Below are positions 5,158-33,687 of a DNA stretch of 36,374 nt, piece by piece. The notes beneath the pieces were generated by a model. It did no database searches, was not told the origin of the DNA, and was given only the letters and a program-made list of their open reading frames with translations. A program made the position numbers and the translations under genes. The stretch comes from Verrucomicrobiota bacterium (GTDB taxonomy: Bacteria > Verrucomicrobiota > Verrucomicrobiia > Opitutales > Oceanipulchritudinaceae), in the NCBI GenBank assembly GCA_021208135.1, contig JAJOKB010000119.1, positions 1-36,374 of the forward strand. Reading direction: 5' to 3'. Numbering within the stretch: the first letter of the stretch is position 1; each line of letters opens with the position of its first letter.

Positions 5158-8100
5158 ATGATCGCCCGACTGCTAAAAAAATTCTCTGGAGGCCACTACC
5201 GCAAGTTTTACCGGCAGTGCCAACCCTTGGTGGCACGCATCAACGAGCTTGAGCTGCAATACCAAAAACTAAGCGACGAAGAACTTCGCGCGCATACCGA
5301 GCAGTTCCGCGAACGCTTCCGCAAAGGCGAATCCTTGGACGATTTGCTGCCCGAAGCGTTTGCCACCGTCAAAAACGCTGCGCGCCGCTTGTGCGGGCAG
5401 GAAATCACCTATGTCGGGGTTCAGGACACCTGGAACATGGTCCACTACGATGTGCAGCTGATCGGCGGCATGGCCTTGCATAGACACATGATCGCAGAAA
5501 TGGCCACCGGGGAAGGTAAAACCTTGGTTGCGACCTGTCCGCTTTATTTGAATGCACTGGCGGGCCGGGGTGCGCAGTTGGTCACGGTGAATGAATACTT
5601 GGCCCAGCGTGACGCCGAATGGATGGGGCACGTGTATAAATTCCTCGGTATGACCGTTGGTGTGATTCGCAATCAACAACCACCTGAAGAGAAACGGGCA
5701 GCCTACAACTGCGATATCACCTATGGCACCGCAAGCGAATTTGGGTTTGACTACCTGCGCGACAACGGCATGGCGATGTCCAAGGAAACTCAAGTTCAAC
5801 GCGACTACTTTTATTGTATCGTGGACGAAGTGGACTCGATTCTGATCGACGAGGCTCGCACCCCCTTGATTATTTCCGGCCCGGTTCAAGACGATACTGT
5901 GGGGCCTTATCTCGAGTACAAAAAACCGATTGAACAACTGGTCAAAGCGCAGACCAATTTATGCAATCAATTCATTAGCGAAGCCAAAGCTGAATTCGAC
6001 AAGGGCGCGCAGGGCAACGAACAACAGGCTCTCTACCGCATGTTGCAGGTAAAGCTGGGTATGCCACGCAACAAAATTTTCATGCGCATGATGGAGGAAG
6101 GTTCCATTCGCAAAAAGTTCGACGCCTACGACCTCGAGATGGCAGGCGACTTTAACAAGACCAAGAAGTATCAACTCAAGGAGGAGTTGTACTACTCCAT
6201 CGACGAAAAACAAAGACAAAGCGACTTGGGTGAAATGGGGCGTGAATTCCTCATGCCCGACCAACCGGATGCATTCGTGCTGCCGGATTTGCCGACTCTG
6301 TACATGGAGATCGATGCGCTGAGGGATAAGTCTCCGGAAGAAAAAGCCTCACTAAAGGCAGAATGGCAGACTAAATTCGAACGCACCAGTGAAACGATCC
6401 ATGTCATCAGTCAACTGCTGAGAGCCTACAGCCTGTACGATAAAGACGTGGAGTATGTGGTTCAGGATGGTAAAGTCATGATCGTGGACGAAAATACCGG
6501 CCGTGTCATGCCCGGCAGGCGTTGGTCCGACGGACTGCACCAGGCGGTTGAAGCCAAGGAAGGTGTCCAAATCGAAAAAGAATCGAAGACCTACGCCACC
6601 ATTACCCTGCAGAACTATTTCCGTCTGTACGAAAAACTGGCTGGTATGACTGGCACTGCCGAGACTGAGGCCAACGAATTCAAAGACATTTACAAACTCG
6701 ACGTTATGGTCATTCCGACCAATAAGCCGAGTATCCGCATCGACCAGAACGACATCATCTACAAGACACGCAGGGAAAAATATAAGGCTGTTATTGAAGA
6801 GATCCGCAGCGCACACCAGCGCGGTCAACCTTGCCTGGTCGGCACCGTATCCGTGGATTCTTCTGAAGTTCTCAGCCGTATGCTCAAGCGGGAGATGATT
6901 CCGCACAATGTGTTGAATGCCAAGTATCACGCGCAGGAAGCTGAAATCGTTCCCGGGCCGGGCAAAAGGGCGCGGTCACAATCGCCACCAACATGGCGGG
7001 TCGCGGTACCGATATTAAGTTGGGGGCAGGTGTATCCGACCTCGGCGGCTTGTACGTTTTAGGGACTGAACGCCATACTTCGCGCCGGATCGACCGCCAG
7101 TTGCGCGGGCGTTGCGCACGTCAGGGAGACCCGGGCACCACACGCTTTTTCCTGTCGCTCGAGGACGAACTGATGCGCCTGTACAGTCAGGGTAGCGCTG
7201 GCAAGCTTTTGGAAAGCTCCTTTGAAGAGGGACAACCTTTGGAGCACCGTTGGTTGAATCCAATGATCGAGCGCGCACAAAAAACCGTCGAGCAACATCA
7301 CTACTCGGTACGTCGCAGATTGCTTCAATACGATGATGTGGGTTCCAAGCAACGCGAAGTCATTTATGGGCTGCGCAATGATGCCCTGCTCAGCGATGAA
7401 CCAAAGGAAATCATCTTCGAACTGATCCGCGAGGAGGTGCAGCACAGGATTGAGGAATTCGCTGTCAGCGACCCCAAAGCAGCTTCGGAAAAGGATTACC
7501 AAGACTACTTGAACTGGGTGTGCCAGACATTCCCGGTCAGCCTGAAAGAGCAGGAATTGACCGGAAAATCAGGGGCCGACATTGAAAAGTTGACCCTGTC
7601 GCGCATCGAAGAAGCTTATCAGGTCAAGGAAGCAGCGGAAGACCCGCAGATGCTGCGGCAACTGGAGCGCATGGTCGTTATCAGCAATGTGGATCGCAAC
7701 TGGCAAACACACTTGACCGAGATGGAGGATCTCAGACAAAGCGTTGGTTTGCGCGGTTATGGTCAAAAAGATCCATTGGTGGAGTATAAAAGCGAGGCCT
7801 TTGGATTCTTTGAACAGATGATGAACCAAGTGCGCACCGATATCTGCAGTGGCATTTTCCGCAGTGTGACCAACATGCGCGCCTACCAAAACATGATTGC
7901 TCACTTGCAAAGAACAGCCCGCACAACGGGTCCAGCTGGTCCTGATGGAGCTGCGGCAGGTGCCGTTGCAGCTCAACCTGCGGTTGCCGGAGCAGACTCC
8001 GGCGCGCACACTTCAGCTGCCGCTGGTAAACCTTTGCCATCTGTCAAACGCACCCCCGTACGCATCGCCAACGAACCTGCCCGAAATGATGTTGTCACCA

Positions 8101-9784: not shown

Positions 9785-12700
9785 CTATTGGCAGGCTTCA
9801 CACTCTTCGCCGCGCAGCATAGCCTCGATCGAACAGGCTTTGATCTCCGCTTCTGTTGCCACTTTTTTCTGCGCGGGGGCTGCTGATTCCTGTTTGAGAG
9901 ACACCGTCGCTTTTTCGATATTCGACGCTCCCAATGTGCGCAAATAGTAGGTGGTCTTCAGCCCCTTGCGCCAAGCGGCACGATACATATGCGACAAGGT
10001 CTTCATGTCCGGGGCCGCCAGCCACAGGTTAACTGATTGGCTTTGATCAATCCATTTTTGACGCCGCGCCGCAGCTTCAATTACCCAATCATAAGGAACC
10101 TCAAAGGCAGTCAGGTACCGCAGGCGCAAATCTTCAGGGATATCGGCAATCTTGCTCAGATCTCCGTCAAAATACTTCAGCTGGTCACGAATAGTATCAG
10201 TCCACAAGCCGCGGACTTTCAAGTCGCGCACCAACCAAGCATTCAACACAATGAACTCACCCGAGAGATTGCTTTTCACAAACAGGTTTTTGTAGTTCGG
10301 CTCGATACATGGACTCGATCCCATGATGTTGGAAATCGTCGCAGTGGGAGCAATGGCCAGCACATTGGAATTGCGCATCCCGTGCCGTGCGATTTTGTCC
10401 CGTACCACTGACCAATCCATCTTGCTACCGCGCGGCACTTCAATCGCGACACCACGTTCCTGCTCCAGAATTTCAATCGAATCCTGCGGCAGTAAACCCC
10501 GGCTCCACTTGGAACCGGCATAAGTAGAGTATGTGCCGCGCTCTGAAGCCAGATCGCTGGAAGCTTCGTAGGCATAGTAGGCAATTGCCTCCATAAACTC
10601 GTCGTTAAACTCGACAGCCTCTTGGGAGGCAAAACTCAAACCCTTCAGGAACAAGGCATTCTGCAAGCCCATGACTCCCAAACCAACAGGTCTATGCCTG
10701 CTGTTGGCGGTGCGGGCCGCATCGGTCGGATAAAAGTTGATGTCGATCACATTGTCCAACGCACGCACAGCAACCTGAATGGTATCGCGCAACTTTTCGT
10801 GATCCAGTGAACCATCCGCCAACAGGTGACTCTCAAGAATCACCGACCCAAGATTACAAACCGCAGTCTCGTCTGCACCGGTATTCAGCGTGATCTCTGT
10901 ACACAAGTTTGAACTGTGAATGACACCCGTGTGGTCCTGCGGGTTGCGCAGGTTACAGGGATCCTTGAACGTGATCCATGGGTGCCCGGTCTCGAACAGC
11001 ATTTTCAGCATCTGCTTCCACAGGTCAATGGCAGGCATTTTCTGAGACCAGATTTTGCCTTCATCCGCCAGACGCTCGTAATGCTGGTAACGCTCTTCAA
11101 AAGCTTTGCCATAAAGATCGTGCAAATCAGGGGTCTCGTTGGCCCGGAACAACGACCAATCCTGACGGGATTCCATCCGCTTCATGAATAAATCCGGAAT
11201 CCAGTTGGCGGTATTCATGTCGTGTGTACGCCGACGATCATCACCGGTGTTGCGGCGCAGTTCCAAAAAGTCCAATACATCGTTATGCCAACTCTCCAGA
11301 TAGGCACAGCCCGAACCACGGCGCTTACCGCCTTGGTTGACCGCCACCAATTGGTCATTGTGCATCTTCAAAAAGGGAATGACTCCCTGGCTTTCGCCAT
11401 TGGTGCCTTTAATGTACGATCCGGTACCGCGCACCGACGTCCAGGAACCTCCAAGCCCCCCAGCCCACTTCGACAAAAATGCATTCTCTGCAATGCCGCG
11501 AATCATGATCGATTCAATGCTATCATCCACTTTGTAGAGATAGCAGCTGGAAAGCTGACTGTGCAGGGTTCCCGAATTGAACAAGGTAGGCGTGCTGGAG
11601 CAAAATCTACGACTCTTGTAGAGGTTGTAGAGCCGGGTTACCCAATCATCGCGCTGCTCCTTTTCACGAATAAACAGACCCATGGAAACCCGCATCCAGA
11701 AAAACTGCGGCACTTCCATCCGTCGCACTGGCTTACAGGTTTTGTCTATCAACAGATAGCGATCGTACAGGGTCTGAATGCCCAGATAATCAAAGTCCAG
11801 GTCCGCACTGGGATCCAACGCAGCTGCCAGACGATCCAAATCATAAACTTTCAAAAGTTCAGGGTTCAGTCGTTCGATGCTGACCGCGTGGCGCAAATAT
11901 TGTTTAAAGGCTTTTTGGTGCGCTTCTTTCAAGGCACCTATACCATCTCTCACAATATTCCAGTTGAGCACTTCCTCATAGATAAAGGTCAGCAAAATAC
12001 GACCGGCGAATTTTGCGAAATCGGCATCGCGCTCAATCAATGTCTTGGCGTTGAGAATGATGGTCTTGCGCAGATCCTCCAGCTTCATTTCCGAGTAAAG
12101 AGAACGACGTAATTCAACCTCAATCTCATCCTTGGTCATGCTCAATTCGAGGCCGATCACCGCGTACTCAATGCGCCGGCGCAAATCCACGCCATCCCAG
12201 AACTCGGTCAGTCCATCGGGCATGGTCACCACAATCAGACTGTTTTGCCGATCATCTTCAGTCACCTCGACTTTGCTCTCCTGCTCGCGCAGGTGGCGAC
12301 GGTGGGCACGGTAAAGAATATACGCCTCGGCGACCTTGAAGTGTCCATGACGCATCAGCTCTTCCTGCACAATGTCCTGCACTTCCTCGATGTGAATACG
12401 CGCATGATTGATCCGGCGTACCCGGTCAGCCACACTCTCGGCAACCGCAACCGCAGGCTCGGAATCCAATCCAAGCGTCAGAAATGCCTTGCGCACCGCT
12501 ATCTCCACCTTGTTCGTGTCCCAGGCGACTTCCTGATTATTTCTGCGGATAACCAGTGTTTGGATCGGCAACTCTTCGGTCATATCCCCACCGGCATTTC
12601 GCATCAATAACAAACTCTTGGCCACATCCGGCGCATTGTTCTCAATCAGAGTCTTTTCGATGAGCAAATGTACCTCGCGTTCACTGAGAGTGAGCGCCTT

Positions 12701-13039
12701 GCCAGCCTTGGCCAGCTCAACCATCCGGCGCGCTACCGCACGCGCCACCAAAGCCACGAAAGCCCGATTCTTTTCAGTGAAAATTTTGGACTCCTCTTCG
12801 TCCCTCGACAACAGAAGATTGGTGAGTGCAGCACCAACAGTTTCAGCCACCTGCGCCAAATCAAAATCAACAACGCCAGTATCCATCTGCACCTTAATAG
12901 GTGTTTCATGGGTGGATTCAGGAAAAAGTACGTCGTTTTGTACCAATTCGCGCCAGTTAAACCGGGGAGCACCCAGAGTTCTTTGCGCACTGATGCGCTT
13001 TAAGGCCAGATCAGCCTCGTAGACAGAGTGAGATATCAT
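9785..13039 (-). CDS. nrdA: Class I ribonucleotide reductase large subunit NrdA with multiple N-terminal ATP-cones
   Basis: The large subunit reduces ribonucleoside diphosphates using a radical delivered by NrdB. At 1084 residues it is much longer than E. coli NrdA (about 760) and close to chlamydial NrdA. About 370 N-terminal residues hold cone-like units: one near residues 50-150, a clear one at about 160-255 (LVIRRNNQEVAWDTNKVEIA) and a third at about 270-370. The catalytic core has the redox cysteines in QLSSCYLYKV and ETAVCNLGS, the radical cysteine with its Asn and Glu in SSNLCTEITLNT, the PTATISNIMG loop, the radical-transfer tyrosine pair in TTYYLRT, and a C-terminal thioredoxin-reactive pair in EECEACQ. 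It lies 30 bases after nrdB on the same strand and is surely cotranscribed. Confidence 0.96.
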   Translation of the reverse strand: MISHSVYEADLALKRISAQRTLGAPRFNWRELVQNDVLFPESTHETPIKVQMDTGVVDFDLAQVAETVGAALTNLLLSRDEEESKIFTEKNRAFVALVARAVARRMVELAKAGKALTLSEREVHLLIEKTLIENNAPDVAKSLLLMRNAGGDMTEELPIQTLVIRRNNQEVAWDTNKVEIAVRKAFLTLGLDSEPAVAVAESVADRVRRINHARIHIEEVQDIVQEELMRHGHFKVAEAYILYRAHRRHLREQESKVEVTEDDRQNSLIVVTMPDGLTEFWDGVDLRRRIEYAVIGLELSMTKDEIEVELRRSLYSEMKLEDLRKTIILNAKTLIERDADFAKFAGRILLTFIYEEVLNWNIVRDGIGALKEAHQKAFKQYLRHAVSIERLNPELLKVYDLDRLAAALDPSADLDFDYLGIQTLYDRYLLIDKTCKPVRRMEVPQFFWMRVSMGLFIREKEQRDDWVTRLYNLYKSRRFCSSTPTLFNSGTLHSQLSSCYLYKVDDSIESIMIRGIAENAFLSKWAGGLGGSWTSVRGTGSYIKGTNGESQGVIPFLKMHNDQLVAVNQGGKRRGSGCAYLESWHNDVLDFLELRRNTGDDRRRTHDMNTANWIPDLFMKRMESRQDWSLFRANETPDLHDLYGKAFEERYQHYERLADEGKIWSQKMPAIDLWKQMLKMLFETGHPWITFKDPCNLRNPQDHTGVIHSSNLCTEITLNTGADETAVCNLGSVILESHLLADGSLDHEKLRDTIQVAVRALDNVIDINFYPTDAARTANSRHRPVGLGVMGLQNALFLKGLSFASQEAVEFNDEFMEAIAYYAYEASSDLASERGTYSTYAGSKWSRGLLPQDSIEILEQERGVAIEVPRGSKMDWSVVRDKIARHGMRNSNVLAIAPTATISNIMGSSPCIEPNYKNLFVKSNLSGEFIVLNAWLVRDLKVRGLWTDTIRDQLKYFDGDLSKIADIPEDLRLRYLTAFEVPYDWVIEAAARRQKWIDQSQSVNLWLAAPDMKTLSHMYRAAWRKGLKTTYYLRTLGASNIEKATVSLKQESAAPAQKKVATEAEIKACSIEAMLRGEECEACQ

Positions 13040-13069: not shown

Positions 13070-14163
13070 TCAAAGTTCATCATCATCCACCACGCCCAGA
13101 GCACTGGACTTTTGGTATTCGGTAACCCGGCCTTCAAAAAAGTTTTGTTCCTTTTTAATATCCATCATCTCCGCCAACCAGGGAAGAGGATTCTGGACTC
13201 CGGGATGGAGGTGTGGCAATCCGACGCCTTCAAGACGACGATCGGCAATATAGTCGATGTATTGGGTAAATTCCTGCGCACTCAAGCCAACGGCATTCAC
13301 CGGCAGACAATCCAAAATGAATTCCTTCTCCAGCTGAATGGCTTCTTTCATCAACTCCAATAACTCAGCCTGGAATGCTTCCGTCCAGATTTCCGGATTC
13401 TCGTCCACCAGATCAAGGAACAGGTGCTTGAACAAGGCAATATGATTGGATTCGTCGCGCAGGGTGTAACGGAACATCTGTCCAATACCAGGGAATTTAT
13501 TTTGGCGGTACAAACTGAGAACCATGCCAAACAAACCATAGAATTGCGTGCCCTCCATGCACTGCCCAAACAAAAAATATGTTTTTGGCCAGCGCCTGCT
13601 TGTTTTTCCAAAGTGGTCAGATCCAAATCACGACGCAATCCACGGCTGTTGTTCACCACCAACGAATTTTTGCGCTTGATAGTCGGAATATCCTCAAACA
13701 TCGCCTCACATTCGTGAGGATTCAATCCAAGTGAACTGATCATGTACACCAGACTGTCGGCATGAATGTTTTCCTCATGCGCATGCCGCCCTAACACCAA
13801 CTTCAATTCGGGCGCAGTGACCAACTCACGGGTAACGTGCATGATGTTGTCTCCCACTATCCCTTCCGCTGCACTGAAGTATCCAATGGCCATTTTGATG
13901 ATCCAACGATCGATTTCGGTGATGGCTCCACTCGTGTCCCGCCATTGCTCCACATCCTTCTGCATGGGCACGTCTTCCGGCTCCCAATGATTGGCCTTCA
14001 TCGTCTTGTACAACTCATAGGCCCATTGATACTTCAAGGGCAGAATATTGAAAAACATGGTATCGCGACCATTGATGATCCGCTTTGCAGCATAGGCTTC
14101 CTCAGCCTTGCTGCGGTCAAGAGTGAAGGACTTGTTGCCAATCGTGTAGACTTTGGTTTCCAT
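13070..14163 (-). CDS. nrdB: Class Ic-like ribonucleotide reductase small subunit NrdB (Leu at the radical-Tyr position), frameshifted
   Basis: NrdB makes and stores the oxidant that starts catalysis in NrdA. The metal ligands visible are Glu100 (FSAAEGIVGDN), Glu131 and His134 (HEENIH), the Glu in CMEGTQFYG, and Glu and His in RDESNHIALF. Four residues after His134, where E. coli has the radical Tyr122, there is Leu138 (codon 13750-13752). The first ligand is Glu rather than Asp, and the stretch resembles the chlamydial Mn/Fe protein, which has Phe at this position. The frame breaks between 13565 and 13612, after TTLEKQA; the continuation reads FGQCMEGTQFYGLFG. One missing base, or two extra bases (for example one in GGCG and one in a six-T run, giving LAKNIFLFGQ), would repair it to about 364 residues. 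The break is downstream of Leu138, so that call is not affected. Confidence 0.93.
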
Positions 14164-23214: not shown

Positions 23215-24680
23215 ATGCAAGCTAATCGCACAATTACAGTCGCCCGTGGAGATGGAATCGGGCCGGAAATAATGGACGCTACCCTGCGCATATTGAAAGC
23301 GGCGGGGGCTCGCTTGAATTATGAAGAGATCGAGATTGGGGAACAGCAATACCTTGCAGGGCATTCTTCGGGAATCACGCCGACCGACTGGAAGACATTA
23401 CTGCGCAATAAAATTTTGTTGAAGGCCCCGATCACCACGGCCGCTGGGAGGGGGCTACAAGAGCCTCAACGTGACCATTCGCAAGAGCCTGCGATTATTT
23501 TCCAACGTGCGCCCGTGCAAGGCGTACTCTCCCTACGTGGCGACTAATTTTCCGAATATCGACATGGTGATCATTCGCGAAAACGAAGAGGATTTGTACG
23601 CTGGCATTGAGCACCAGCAAACGGACGAAGTGGTGCAGACGCTAAAGCTGGTGAGCAGACCCGGCTGTGAAGCCATCTGCCGCTATGCGATGGAGTATGC
23701 CCGCGCCTACGGCAGACGCAAAGTTACCTGCTTGACCAAGAGCAACATTATGAAGCATTCCGATGGCTTGTTTCAGAAGACCTTCGAGCGCATTGCAGCT
23801 GAGCCTCAATACAGTGATATCGTCACTGAACACAGGATTATAGACATCGGAGCGGCTCTGGTTGCCGCCCACCCTGAAGAGCTGGATGTCATTGTAACCT
23901 TGAATCTGTACGGCGATATTGTGAGTGACATCGCAGCGCTGGTAGCTGGTTCGGTGGGCTTGGCAGGATCCGCCAACATAGGCTTCGACGCGGCCATGTT
24001 TGAAGCAGTGCACGGATCGGCGCCGGATATCGCAGGCAAAGACATTGCCAATCCATCGGGGTTACTGAATGCAGCCGTGATGATGTTGGTGCATCTGGAT
24101 CAGGGCGACATCGCATCAGTCATTCACAACGCCTGGATGAAAGCCTGGAAGACGGTTTTCATACCGCTGATATATACAAGGCAGGCAGTTCAGCGCGCAA
24201 AGTGGGCACCAAAGCGTTCGCTGACGCGGTCATTGAAAGGTTGGGCCAAACTCCCGCCAACTTCAGGCCCAGTTCATTTGATAACAAAAGGCATCAAGGG
24301 TGGAAATGCCCAATCATCCGCGCCGCAAAAAGAAGTTGGTCGGCGTGGATGTCTTCATCGACTGGAATGGCGTCAACAATGAAGGCAATCGCGACGCCGA
24401 TCAGATCGGCAAGCTGCTGGAGGCGGTCAACGGTGACGGCTTGCAGCTGCGCGTCATCACCAACCGCGGGGTGAAAGTTTATCCTGAGGGACTGAAGGAA
24501 ACATTTTGCACCGACCATTGGCGCTGCCGTTTTATGGCAACCAATGAAAGCGGAGCCACCCATGGACAAATCTCCAGTCTTCTGTTGAGAGTTGCAAACG
24601 CCGGTTTGGATTTTATCAAAACAGAACACCTGTACTATTTTGACCAAGAGCGCGGGTTCTCATTGGCGCAAGGCGAATAA
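23215..24680 (+). CDS. icd: Isocitrate dehydrogenase, Thermus-type with C-terminal extra domain; three frameshifts
   Basis: Icd oxidises isocitrate to 2-oxoglutarate in the TCA cycle. The start is the ATG at 23215 (MQANRTITVARGDGIGPEI). Family marks are the substrate loop (LGGGYKSLNVTIRK after repair), VIIRENEEDLYAGIEH, VTCLTKSNIMKHSDGLF, NLYGDIVSDIAA and FEAVHGSAPDIAGK. After the core comes an extra domain of about 130 residues (KKLVGVDVFIDWNGVNN to FSLAQGE), known from Thermus and Rickettsia enzymes of about 490 residues. Three single-base errors break the frame: an extra G near 23440, a missing A near 24138 (restoring KSLEDGFHTADIYK) and a missing G near 24299 (joining HQGVEMPNHPRRKKK). 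The repaired length is about 488 residues. Coenzyme choice (NADP expected) is from the family, not read directly. Confidence 0.92.
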
Positions 24681-27084: not shown

Positions 27085-28380
27085 ACTACTTTGGATACGC
27101 AACGGTCGGGTGATCGATCCGGCCTCAAAGCGCGATGAAAGAGGCGAAGTATGTGTGCGCCATGGCAAAATTGTCGCCAACTTGACCGAGGAGGAAAAAG
27201 CCGCCGCAACAATATTTGATGCCGCTGGCAAGATTGTGGCTCCCGGCCTGGTTGACATTCACGTGCATTTTCGCGAGCCGGGACAAACACACAAGGAGGA
27301 CATTGGCAGCGGTAGTAGGGCCGCAGCTGCGGGTGGTTTCACCACCGTAGTGTGCATGCCGAACACCTCACCGGTTGCCGACAATCCCGGCACCATCCAA
27401 CGCATCAAGGATGCAGCGCAAAGAAACGCAGTGGTGAATGTATATCCAACCGGGTGCTTGACGATCGGCATGAAGGGAGAGGAACTGGCTCCTATCGGTT
27501 CGTTAAGGCGGCCGGGGTAGTGGCTGTGACTGATGATGGTCTGTGCGTTCAAAACAACGAGGTTATGCGCCGGGCAGTCGAATACGCACGCATGTTTGGA
27601 CTGGTGGTGATGGACCACTGCCAGGATGCCTCCATGACCAAAGGTGCGGTGATGAATGACGGTTACTGGTCGTTGAAGTTGGGACTGAAGGGATGGCCGG
27701 CGGCAGCGGAAGATTTGATCATTGCGCGCAATATCGTGTTGGCCGAGTTCCTGGATGCCCACATCCACATGCAGCACGTCAGCAGCGCAGGCGGAGTTGA
27801 ACTATTGCGCAGAGCCAAAAAACGCGGGGTGAAAGTTTCCGGCGAAGCTGCGCCTCATCATTTTTTCTTCACCGATGCGTGCTGCCGCAACTATGACACC
27901 AATTTCAAAATGAACCCGCCCTTGCGCACAGAGCGCGACCGGCTGGCGATTATTGATGGATTGCTGGACGGCACTCTGGATATCATTGCCACCGATCACG
28001 CTCCGCATACCGAAGACGAAAAGGACTGCGAATTTGATTATGCTCCCTTCGGAATCATTGGCTTGGAAACCGCATTGGGAGCCTCGCTGGAAACACTGTA
28101 TCACAGCGGCAAGATGACTTTGCCGGAGCTATTGAGCTTGATGACCAACAAGCCTGCGGCTATTGTGAATCTTCCCAAAGGCACACTGACACCGGGTGCG
28201 GACGCTGACATCGTGGTCTTTGATCCGGATTGTCCGGTGCAGGTTGATGCCCGCCAATTGCAAAGCAAGTCGAGCAATTGCCCATGGCATGGGCACACGC
28301 TGCGCGGCAAGGTCAACGCCACCTTTGTAGCAGGCAAACTCGTCTGGGACGGCGAGACTGGGCGCATCATCCACCATTGA
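27077..28380 (+). CDS. pyrC: Dihydroorotase PyrC (class I), frameshifted at about 27505
   Basis: PyrC cyclises carbamoyl aspartate to dihydroorotate, the step after PyrB. The ATG at 27077 overlaps the pyrB end by eight bases. Metal ligands are His62 and His64 (DIHVHFREPG), later His residues in MDHCQD and HIHMQHVSSAG, and Asp in ATDHAPHTEDEK. The frame breaks after APIGSL: one missing A in TTAAGG near 27505 restores KAAGVVAVTDDG and a protein of about 434 residues, the length of long class I dihydroorotases. It is part of the dgkA-pyrB-pyrC run. Confidence 0.95.
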
Positions 28381-31382: not shown

Positions 31383-33687
31383 TTAAATCCTTACCCTAAG
31401 TCTGTGCGTGGTTCCGGCAATCGGCAGAGGCAACTTGTTGCCAGACATTACCTCACCATCCAACACCAGCGCCGGGGATTCCCTGCGTCCGCCCGCACAA
31501 CCTGAATTTCGTAAGTAGCACCCCGGAACCGACGAACCGCAGTCATACCAGGCCAGTCCGATGGCAATTGCGGATCTACGGTCAGACCATCCAGCTCTGC
31601 ACGGCAACCGAGCAAACCATCCACAACGGTACGAAGGTACCAGGCACTGGTTCCTGTGTTCGGCGAATGACTGCTTTTTCCGGCAATTTCAGGGTAAGTC
31701 GGTCCACGATAAAAATTGGGGATGTAAACTGGCAACTGATCGGCATCCCTGATAGCGCGTCCCTGTTCGCCGCCGGGCACCAGGCACCTCAAATACCGCC
31801 AGGCACTGTCGGCATCGCGATACAAAAACAAGCCGTACGCCCAAAACACCACAGCGTGACAATACACAGAACCATTTTCTCCGGTTCCAGGAGTTTTGAG
31901 TGTGATCTTCCCAACGTTACGGCGCATGCCCTCGTAGGCAGGCAACAGGATGGCCGGTCCTGCAGGTGTGTCCAACAACTCGCGCACTGCAGTACGCAAG
32001 GAGGCAAAACGTTGTTCATCCGCGACCTTCCCGATGAGCGCCCAGCTTTGCGCATTAATGAAAATACGGCCCTCAGCACAGGTTGAGGAACCTAAAATCG
32101 ACCCATCGTCAGAAGTGGCGCGCTGATACCATTGCCCATCCCACGCTTGTTCATTGACGGCCTTGCGACAAGCCTCGGCTTCTTTGATGAAGCGCTTCGC
32201 ATCCTCTGTTTTGCCAATAAAACCGGCTACTTCAGCCCATTGTTCCAAGGCATAAGCCAAGGCTTCGGTCAGCCAGATTGATTCACCTTTGCCATCCGGG
32301 CCAGCCATATTAAGAGGGTCATTCCAATCCCCCTGTCCGATGCGCGATAGGCCTCGCGCTGTGCGATCAGCCAGCAACCACTCCAAATTGCGCACAACGT
32401 GGCCATAGATCGAATCTTCGCCACCATCAACATAAGGGACTGACAGATTGAGCAGATCAAAATCGCCGGTTTCCGCCAGATAACAGCGCAGAGCAGGCGG
32501 ACCCCACACTCCACTGTCTTTGTGCGGAATCGTAGTGATAGGCATCACATCCGCACGCGGATCCATGCGCAAACCATGGGGCATGAAACCATCTTTGTGC
32601 TGAAAATCCAGATTCTGGAGAACCACCGTCTGGCGGTGCCAGGATCCATTAAGGTGGCCGCCATTGCGTCCTGGATGGCATTTCGCGCCTGGGGTGCATA
32701 GTTGAATCTCAACGTACGCCCCACCCTCAAAACACGATCCTGCAGCCAGACATTGACGTAGTGATTGAAGGTCTCATCCGGGGTGTGAACTTGCACACCG
32801 GCAGGAAACTGCGCCCTGAATTCTCTCCGGCGGACAAGAATTTGTTCAACAGCGTCCGACCGTTGGTAGCGTTGGCGAATAGTGGCAATTTCAGCATCAT
32901 CGGCGGCAGGTCCCATCAGCAACTGCAACGAGAATGACGAATCCGCAGCCAAATCCACATCATAACGCATTGCCGCAATGGTTTCCTGGTAGCGACTGCG
33001 CACATTCGGCCAATGGGATTCAATCACTGCCTGCGGACGTCCGAAATCACCGTGACCCAAAAATACTTCCTGGCGGGATTCCCAGGCTGAGGGGGTTTTA
33101 TCAGCTAAAACGTAGGTGATATTTTTGCCAGCAGCCAAGCGGTCGTAGTCATCAATCTTCACGTAATACGGGAAGTAACGCATGATGAAACCGGAATGTC
33201 CGGATTCCCAGCCCGCCTGTTGGTCAAGCCGACCAGGGAATCCCAAAGGGAATGCTGGAATGACCTCCAGCGACCGCGCGGATCCGCACACATTGCTGAC
33301 TTTGATCGACCAACATTCGACTGCGTCGTCCTGGGGCAATACGACCTGAACCCTTACTTCTATGCCATCCCTGCGCACCCGCCATTCCAAACTGTCCAAA
33401 CTGACGGTAAAGCTGAAGGAATCGGGATCGGCATAGACCGGACCCCAAGGGGCACTCCACAGCTTACCGCTTTGTTTGTCGCGAATGTAAAACCAACGCC
33501 CCTCCCCGGCGTAGGCATGAGGGTTGGGCTGCATGAAAGCCCCGCGCCCTCTACCGCGGTGGTCCAGATGCAAAAACATCTGGTCATTCCAAAGATCGTA
33601 ATCCGCGCGCTCCAACAACTTAGGATCGCGCAGCACAAAGCGGCTGCCATCTGACTGGAAGCCTGCCACGGTAGCAGGTACGGACAT
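31383..33687 (-). CDS. GH94-like glycoside phosphorylase/hydrolase, two frameshifts
   Basis: The family of cellobiose-phosphorylase-like enzymes splits beta-linked disaccharides with phosphate. The start is the ATG at 33687. The N-terminal domain (residues about 1-270) is the beta-sandwich typical of the family (RDPKLLERADYDLWNDQMF, GRWFYIRDKQSGKLWS). The (alpha/alpha)6 catalytic part has LRFNYAPQARNAIQDAMA, HKDSGVWGPPALRCYL, and the acid-site region RIGQGDWNDPLNM with the family's DWND. Two missing bases break the frame: a C near 32632 (joining GTAQTVVLQNLDFQHK) and a G near 31489 (joining VVRAGRRESPALVLDGEVM). The repaired length is about 768 residues. No signal peptide is seen, so it should be cytoplasmic, as phosphorylases are. 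It lies 45 bases after tpiA on the same strand, so sugar phosphate from it could feed glycolysis (inference). The exact substrate is not readable. Confidence 0.8.

Follow-up and report, generated by a model that had tools for sequence, protein, structure and literature searches.

The window, meaning the whole stretch of 36,374 nucleotides that was analysed, carries on its minus strand nrdB followed by nrdA. Together the two genes are predicted to encode a ribonucleotide reductase of class I in which the small subunit (R2, NrdB) lacks a radical tyrosine. The features of the locus are listed below, with the equivalent residues of the C. trachomatis and E. coli R2 proteins.

14163 to about 13070, minus strand: NrdB as a whole, with the reading frame broken near 13.6 kb.
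14163..13351, minus strand: first open reading frame of NrdB, which begins METKVYTIGNKSF and includes FSAAEGIVGDN and HAHEENIHADSLVYM.
13609..14163, minus strand: first part of NrdB, residues 1-185 (PF00268, E 2e-29; PDB alignments; codon positions).
13070..13573, minus strand: second part of NrdB, in another frame, with the acidic tail (PF00268, E 8e-33; PDB alignments).
13570..13612, minus strand: break in the nrdB reading frame; the gene is intact in close relatives.
13864-13866, minus strand: Glu100, metal ligand 1, equivalent by alignment to C. trachomatis Glu89 and E. coli Asp84.
13771-13773, minus strand: Glu131, metal ligand, from codon position.
13762-13764, minus strand: His134, metal ligand, from codon position.
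13750-13752, minus strand: Leu138 (codon CTG), the radical site, equivalent by alignments to C. trachomatis Phe127 and E. coli Tyr122.
13553-13555, 13451-13453 and 13442-13444, minus strand: metal ligands 4-6 (Glu, Glu and His), in the second open reading frame.
13466-13468, minus strand: equivalent of C. trachomatis Tyr222, in the second part.
13454-13456, minus strand: equivalent of C. trachomatis Asp226, in the second part.
13115-13117, minus strand: C-terminal Tyr, equivalent of C. trachomatis Tyr338, in the second part.
9785..13039, minus strand: NrdA, 1084 residues, the catalytic partner (Pfam and NCBIfam PRK07207 above cut-off).

The two parts of NrdB cover complementary halves of the Pfam profile Ribonuc_red_sm (PF00268), and intact relatives comprise about 363 residues with an acidic tail. 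At least four other genes of the window are also split into two overlapping frames: secA (at 6993-7062), an Iso_dh gene (at 23471-23547), a dihydroorotase-like gene (at 27352-27520) and a GH94 gene (at 32545-32626). The same is true of nrdJ, on another contig of the genome. Because these genes are broken alike and the assembly is a draft (119 contigs, 74.5% complete), the break in nrdB is most likely a sequencing or assembly (indel) error; a true pseudogene is unlikely, with several further genes in the window also broken. The metal ligands and the radical site are untouched. A preliminary description of this DNA had regarded the frameshift as lying downstream and harmless to the class assignment; harmless it is, but it falls inside the interval cited for the gene, at about 13.57-13.61 kb.

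In phmmer alignments the HADSL segment of NrdB is paired with HTHTF in 1syy, the C. trachomatis R2, and with HTHTY in the F127Y mutant (2ani), with Leu138 aligned to Phe127 and Tyr127, respectively, and the segment FSAAEG pairs with C. trachomatis FSTAES, which contains Glu89. In the multiple alignment E. coli Asp84, Glu115, His118 and Tyr122 fall on Glu100, Glu131, His134 and Leu138, and E. coli Glu204, Glu238 and His241 are in register with ligands 4-6. Comparison with the C. trachomatis and E. coli proteins, which the preliminary description had proposed as a check, thus bears out its two central readings, that Leu138 replaces the radical Tyr, with no Tyr at the site, and that the first ligand, in FSAAEGIVGDN, is Glu. 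All six metal ligands (four Glu and two His) are kept, together with the equivalents of C. trachomatis Trp51, Phe197, Tyr222, Asp226 and Tyr338; the first of these is Trp60 in the first part of NrdB, which corresponds to E. coli Trp48.

The best sequence match in the PDB was the C. trachomatis R2c, followed by 6y2n, which we take to come from Saccharopolyspora erythraea; with the N-terminal part alone 6y2n was narrowly ahead. The structure was modelled with AlphaFold2 for the closest intact relative (L004), which is 88% identical to the window protein over 350 columns (mean pLDDT 82). Its best fold match was C. trachomatis Mn(II)Fe(II)-NrdB (TM 0.82-0.83 by query length, E about 1e-21), with 6y2n second and weaker matches to the Aquifex, Clostridium, human, E. 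coli and class Id L. blandensis proteins. The C. trachomatis class Ic NrdB (1syy, 4d8f, 4m1i), which is 36-38% identical to L004 in the fold alignment, has in common with the window protein the lack of a radical Tyr, Glu as ligand 1, the six ligands, the residues equivalent to Trp51, Tyr222, Asp226 and Tyr338, and the fold. It differs in having Phe127 where Leu is found here, in belonging to a sister clade, and in its residues at positions 116, 118, 121, 125, 196 and 223. The 6y2n R2, of class Ic type, likewise shares the Glu ligand, the absence of Tyr and the fold, but has Phe at the radical site and sits on the branch in which Asp/Tyr enzymes are nested. Where solved structures of class Ic-type proteins were found, they were of the Phe type.

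NrdA retains the catalytic residues Cys499, Asn711, Cys713, Glu715 and Cys728, as judged from an active-site alignment with E. coli NrdA, and has a Tyr1031-Tyr1032 dyad and a C-terminal CEAC motif with its Cys pair. It had been described as having several ATP-cones; one clear cone (residues 162-248) lies above the Pfam cut-off, whereas the two weaker cone-like stretches that flank it are both below. The nrdA and nrdB genes are on the same strand in 73 of the 80 loci with flanks, and most of the others are on short contigs. The same genome has a class II (vitamin B12-dependent) nrdJ-like gene on contig C105 (L208). Neither a class III NrdD nor an NrdI was found in the genome, absences that are weak evidence because it is only 74.5% complete. 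A partial gene for an Nramp-type transporter is also present and lends weak support to manganese uptake.

One Verrucomicrobiota clade combines Leu at the radical site with Glu in the ligand 1 position throughout its 149 NrdB sequences, and the 112 loci of the first round all have Glu, Glu, His and Leu at the four sites. Over 140 relatives have an open reading frame, all ligands conserved and Leu fixed. Cultured relatives in which the gene is intact include Cerasicoccus arenae (L042), Geminisphaera colitermitum TAV2 (L102) and Haloferula luteola (L087). An R2 is present in 77 of the 241 verrucomicrobial genomes sampled, of the Glu/Leu type in 51, the chlamydial Glu/Phe type in 8 and the Asp/Tyr type in 19, one genome having two types. 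Because it recurs in 149/149 sequences of the clade and in 51 of 77 R2-bearing genomes, Leu138 is neither a sequencing error or chance occurrence nor specific to this genome. Compared with C. trachomatis, the Leu clade also has fixed second-shell replacements: Gln116 by His, Phe118 by His, Ala121 by Asn, His125 by Asp, Phe196 by Gln and Ile223 by Thr. Tyr95 is fixed in the clade, whereas the chlamydial Phe group has Phe there; Tyr140 is fixed in both groups as well as in related radical-Tyr enzymes. Two Opitutales genomes (L170 in G165 and L174 in G250) have a second, diverged NrdB beside a normal Leu-type copy; this second protein keeps the ligands and Leu and has Asn at the position of C. 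trachomatis Tyr222.

A tree, also suggested in the preliminary description, recovered the Glu/Leu proteins as one clade (support 100/98, or 100/99 with the two trait columns omitted), in which the window NrdB groups with Opitutales relatives. This clade is sister to, and not within, the chlamydial Phe group, which comprises the C. trachomatis R2, 6y2n, a haloarchaeal R2 and verrucomicrobial Glu/Phe proteins. The chlamydial group also holds Asp/Tyr enzymes of Legionella, Paraburkholderia and Teredinibacter plasmids and of viral contigs. These class Ia-like proteins are L195, L196 and L203 and, on viral contigs, L220-L223, L231, L246-L249, L253 and L260. Their nested position may mean that Tyr was regained or that it was lost several times. 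An AU test did not reject a single Leu plus Phe clade (p-AU 0.35 and 0.27), although in the free tree the Phe group encloses the Asp/Tyr enzymes. The results are compatible with one loss of Tyr in common with Chlamydia as well as with repeated losses. The deep joins are provisional, as these trees bring some long branches together. Because the sister group includes Asp/Tyr enzymes, descent alone is no guarantee of a Mn/Fe cofactor.

The pairing of ligand 1 with the radical site was analysed in 246 aligned R2 proteins, which include plasmid, E. coli and viral-contig relatives. Glu as ligand 1 is paired with Leu, Ile, Val or Phe in 201 of 202 proteins, and Asp with Tyr in 44 of 44. The sole exception, with Glu and Tyr, is the R2 of a 3.4 kb Blattabacterium plasmid (L199, pBGIBA); this protein has the Trp characteristic of class Id but Gly at the class Id Lys position. 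A Fisher test was made over the 246 sequences, and its value, uncorrected for relatedness, is not a true probability because the sequences are related. On the tree both sites change jointly in 2/2 well-supported independent pairs, too small a number for a test of coupled evolution to reach significance. Environmental viral contigs (within L211-L263) encode R2 proteins that share with the window protein the Glu ligand and an aliphatic radical-site residue but have Ile (28) or Val (10) in place of Leu; they form a separate, well-supported clade.

The C. trachomatis enzyme served to define class Ic. Glu as ligand 1 marks this class, whereas Asp marks classes Ia and Ib (PMC4118035), and according to a 2011 review the radical site of class Ic holds Phe, Leu or Val (PMC3267527). 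The window NrdB has the marks of class Ic in the broad sense: Leu138 for the radical Tyr, Glu as ligand 1, the Tyr222 and Trp51 relay residues and the C-terminal Tyr. The mark of the chlamydial subgroup, Phe at the site in a Phe/Glu pairing (PMC8463856), is absent, Leu being present. Class Ia is ruled out, both an Asp ligand 1 and the radical Tyr being absent, and so is class Ib, without the radical Tyr and with no NrdI found in the 74.5% complete genome. Class Id is marked by a Tyr/Glu pair with Lys four and Trp seven residues past the first Glu (PMC6754362, PMC5794259, PMC8463856); NrdB has Leu, Gly and Ile/Val in place of Tyr, Lys and Trp, which rules it out. The six ligands rule out the metal-free class Ie, in which ligands are replaced. 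Class O membership is ruled out on the marks tested; its ferritin-like subunits also have Phe or Leu at the radical site, but they comprise about 240 residues with a short C-terminus (PMC9531940), against about 363 residues and an acidic tail in relatives of the window protein.

The signature, the nearest solved structures and the nearest fold make a tyrosine-less, Glu-ligand R2 of class Ic type a well supported assignment. As judged from sequence, NrdB is probably class Ic in the broad sense, with a Glu ligand, a redox-inert residue at the radical site and an oxidant stored in the metals, most likely as Mn(IV)/Fe(III). The preliminary description had proposed a Mn/Fe class Ic enzyme; the class Ic type stands, and Mn/Fe, although the most likely identity by analogy, stays a prediction, as the metal is not readable from sequence or deducible from the ligand set (PMC4118035). 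That description was fair in calling the Leu variant under-studied. Leu at the site is nonetheless not new, because class Ic is described in reviews as having Phe, Leu or Val (PMC3267527), and Leu, Ile and Val are credited to Hogbom 2010 as cited by a 2013 paper (PMC3824934). Its occurrence outside Chlamydiae is also unremarkable, Phe-type class Ic proteins being known in haloarchaea and other bacteria (PMC3019208). A literature search yielded no paper joining Verrucomicrobia with NrdB, and the one joining Verrucomicrobia with class Ic concerns Chlamydiae. The present analysis adds, at the level of sequence, a large verrucomicrobial clade next to the chlamydial group in which Leu is fixed and which has a second shell of its own.

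In the C. trachomatis R2, Mn(II)Fe(II) reacts with O2 to give Mn(IV)/Fe(IV), and the uptake of one electron yields the stored oxidant, Mn(IV)/Fe(III) (PMC4118035, PMC8463856). The electron for assembly is relayed by Tyr222, which is conserved in R2c but not in R2lox, with Trp51, and high activity of the protein requires the mixed-metal cofactor (PMC4118035). By analogy, NrdB would bind two metals through its four Glu and two His, and O2 (or H2O2) would oxidize the pair from its reduced form. An electron passed along the Tyr222 and Trp51 equivalents would then bring the cluster to a high-valent state that is stable, most likely Mn(IV)/Fe(III), with Mn occupying site 1. In each turnover the metal cluster, rather than a tyrosyl radical, would draw an electron from the catalytic Cys of NrdA by way of the NrdA Tyr-Tyr dyad, the C-terminal Tyr of NrdB and Trp, and the oxidized Cys would start nucleotide reduction. 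The metal identity, the oxidation states and the electron route are carried over from C. trachomatis, whereas the residues, their conservation, the operon and the clade were established directly.

A different choice of metal is possible because several second-shell residues that are fixed in the clade depart from those of C. trachomatis. The oxidant might be stored in metals other than Mn/Fe, as homodinuclear Mn2(IV,III), as in class Id, or as high-valent Fe2; Glu as ligand 1 is common to class Id, and the ligand set is silent on the metal. We nevertheless consider such a cofactor rather unlikely, as the Tyr, Lys and Trp of class Id are absent, class Id NrdA proteins have no ATP-cones whereas the window NrdA has one, and the C. 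trachomatis enzyme depends on mixed metals for high activity. It is improbable, on the sequences compared, that the Leu clade is a distinct biochemical subclass in which Leu and the altered second shell select a non-chlamydial cofactor or a different assembly route. A stable radical could alternatively have moved to a nearby Tyr, and Tyr140, two residues past Leu138, and Tyr95, fixed in the clade where the chlamydial group has Phe, are the candidates. Tyr140 does not represent compensation, because it is equally fixed in the chlamydial Phe group and in related enzymes that have retained the radical Tyr; Tyr95 aligns with Tyr79 of E. coli, where another residue carries the radical. This relocation is very unlikely.

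Decay of NrdB, with loss of both Tyr and frame and with the class II NrdJ supplying dNTPs, would fit the broken frame in the assembly and the nrdJ-like gene on another contig. The similar breaks in secA, the Iso_dh, dihydroorotase-like and GH94 genes and nrdJ itself, however, point to sequencing error, and the more than 140 relatives with open frames, all ligands and Leu make decay highly improbable. R2-like ligand-binding oxidases also pair Glu as ligand 1 with Mn/Fe (PMC4118035), but that NrdB is such an oxidase and not a reductase subunit is scarcely credible: it has the C-terminal Tyr, the acidic tail and the nrdA partner, keeps Phe at the Phe197 position, where R2lox has Ala (PMC4118035), and the R2lox models score far below their cut-offs. 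On the C-terminal Tyr, this Phe and nrdA, R2lox, which lacks a C-terminal Tyr and an NrdA partner, is ruled out. A metal-stored oxidant of class Ic type, probably Mn/Fe, is the reading that we prefer.

Within one bacterial phylum Leu is the usual residue at the radical site, and Ile and Val are found in viral relatives. Proteins with Phe, Leu, Ile or Val at this position, together with the nested Tyr enzymes and with ligand 1 being Glu or Asp accordingly, form a natural experiment on oxidant storage, and this set serves the question of what makes a diiron-type protein use metals as opposed to a tyrosine for its oxidant.
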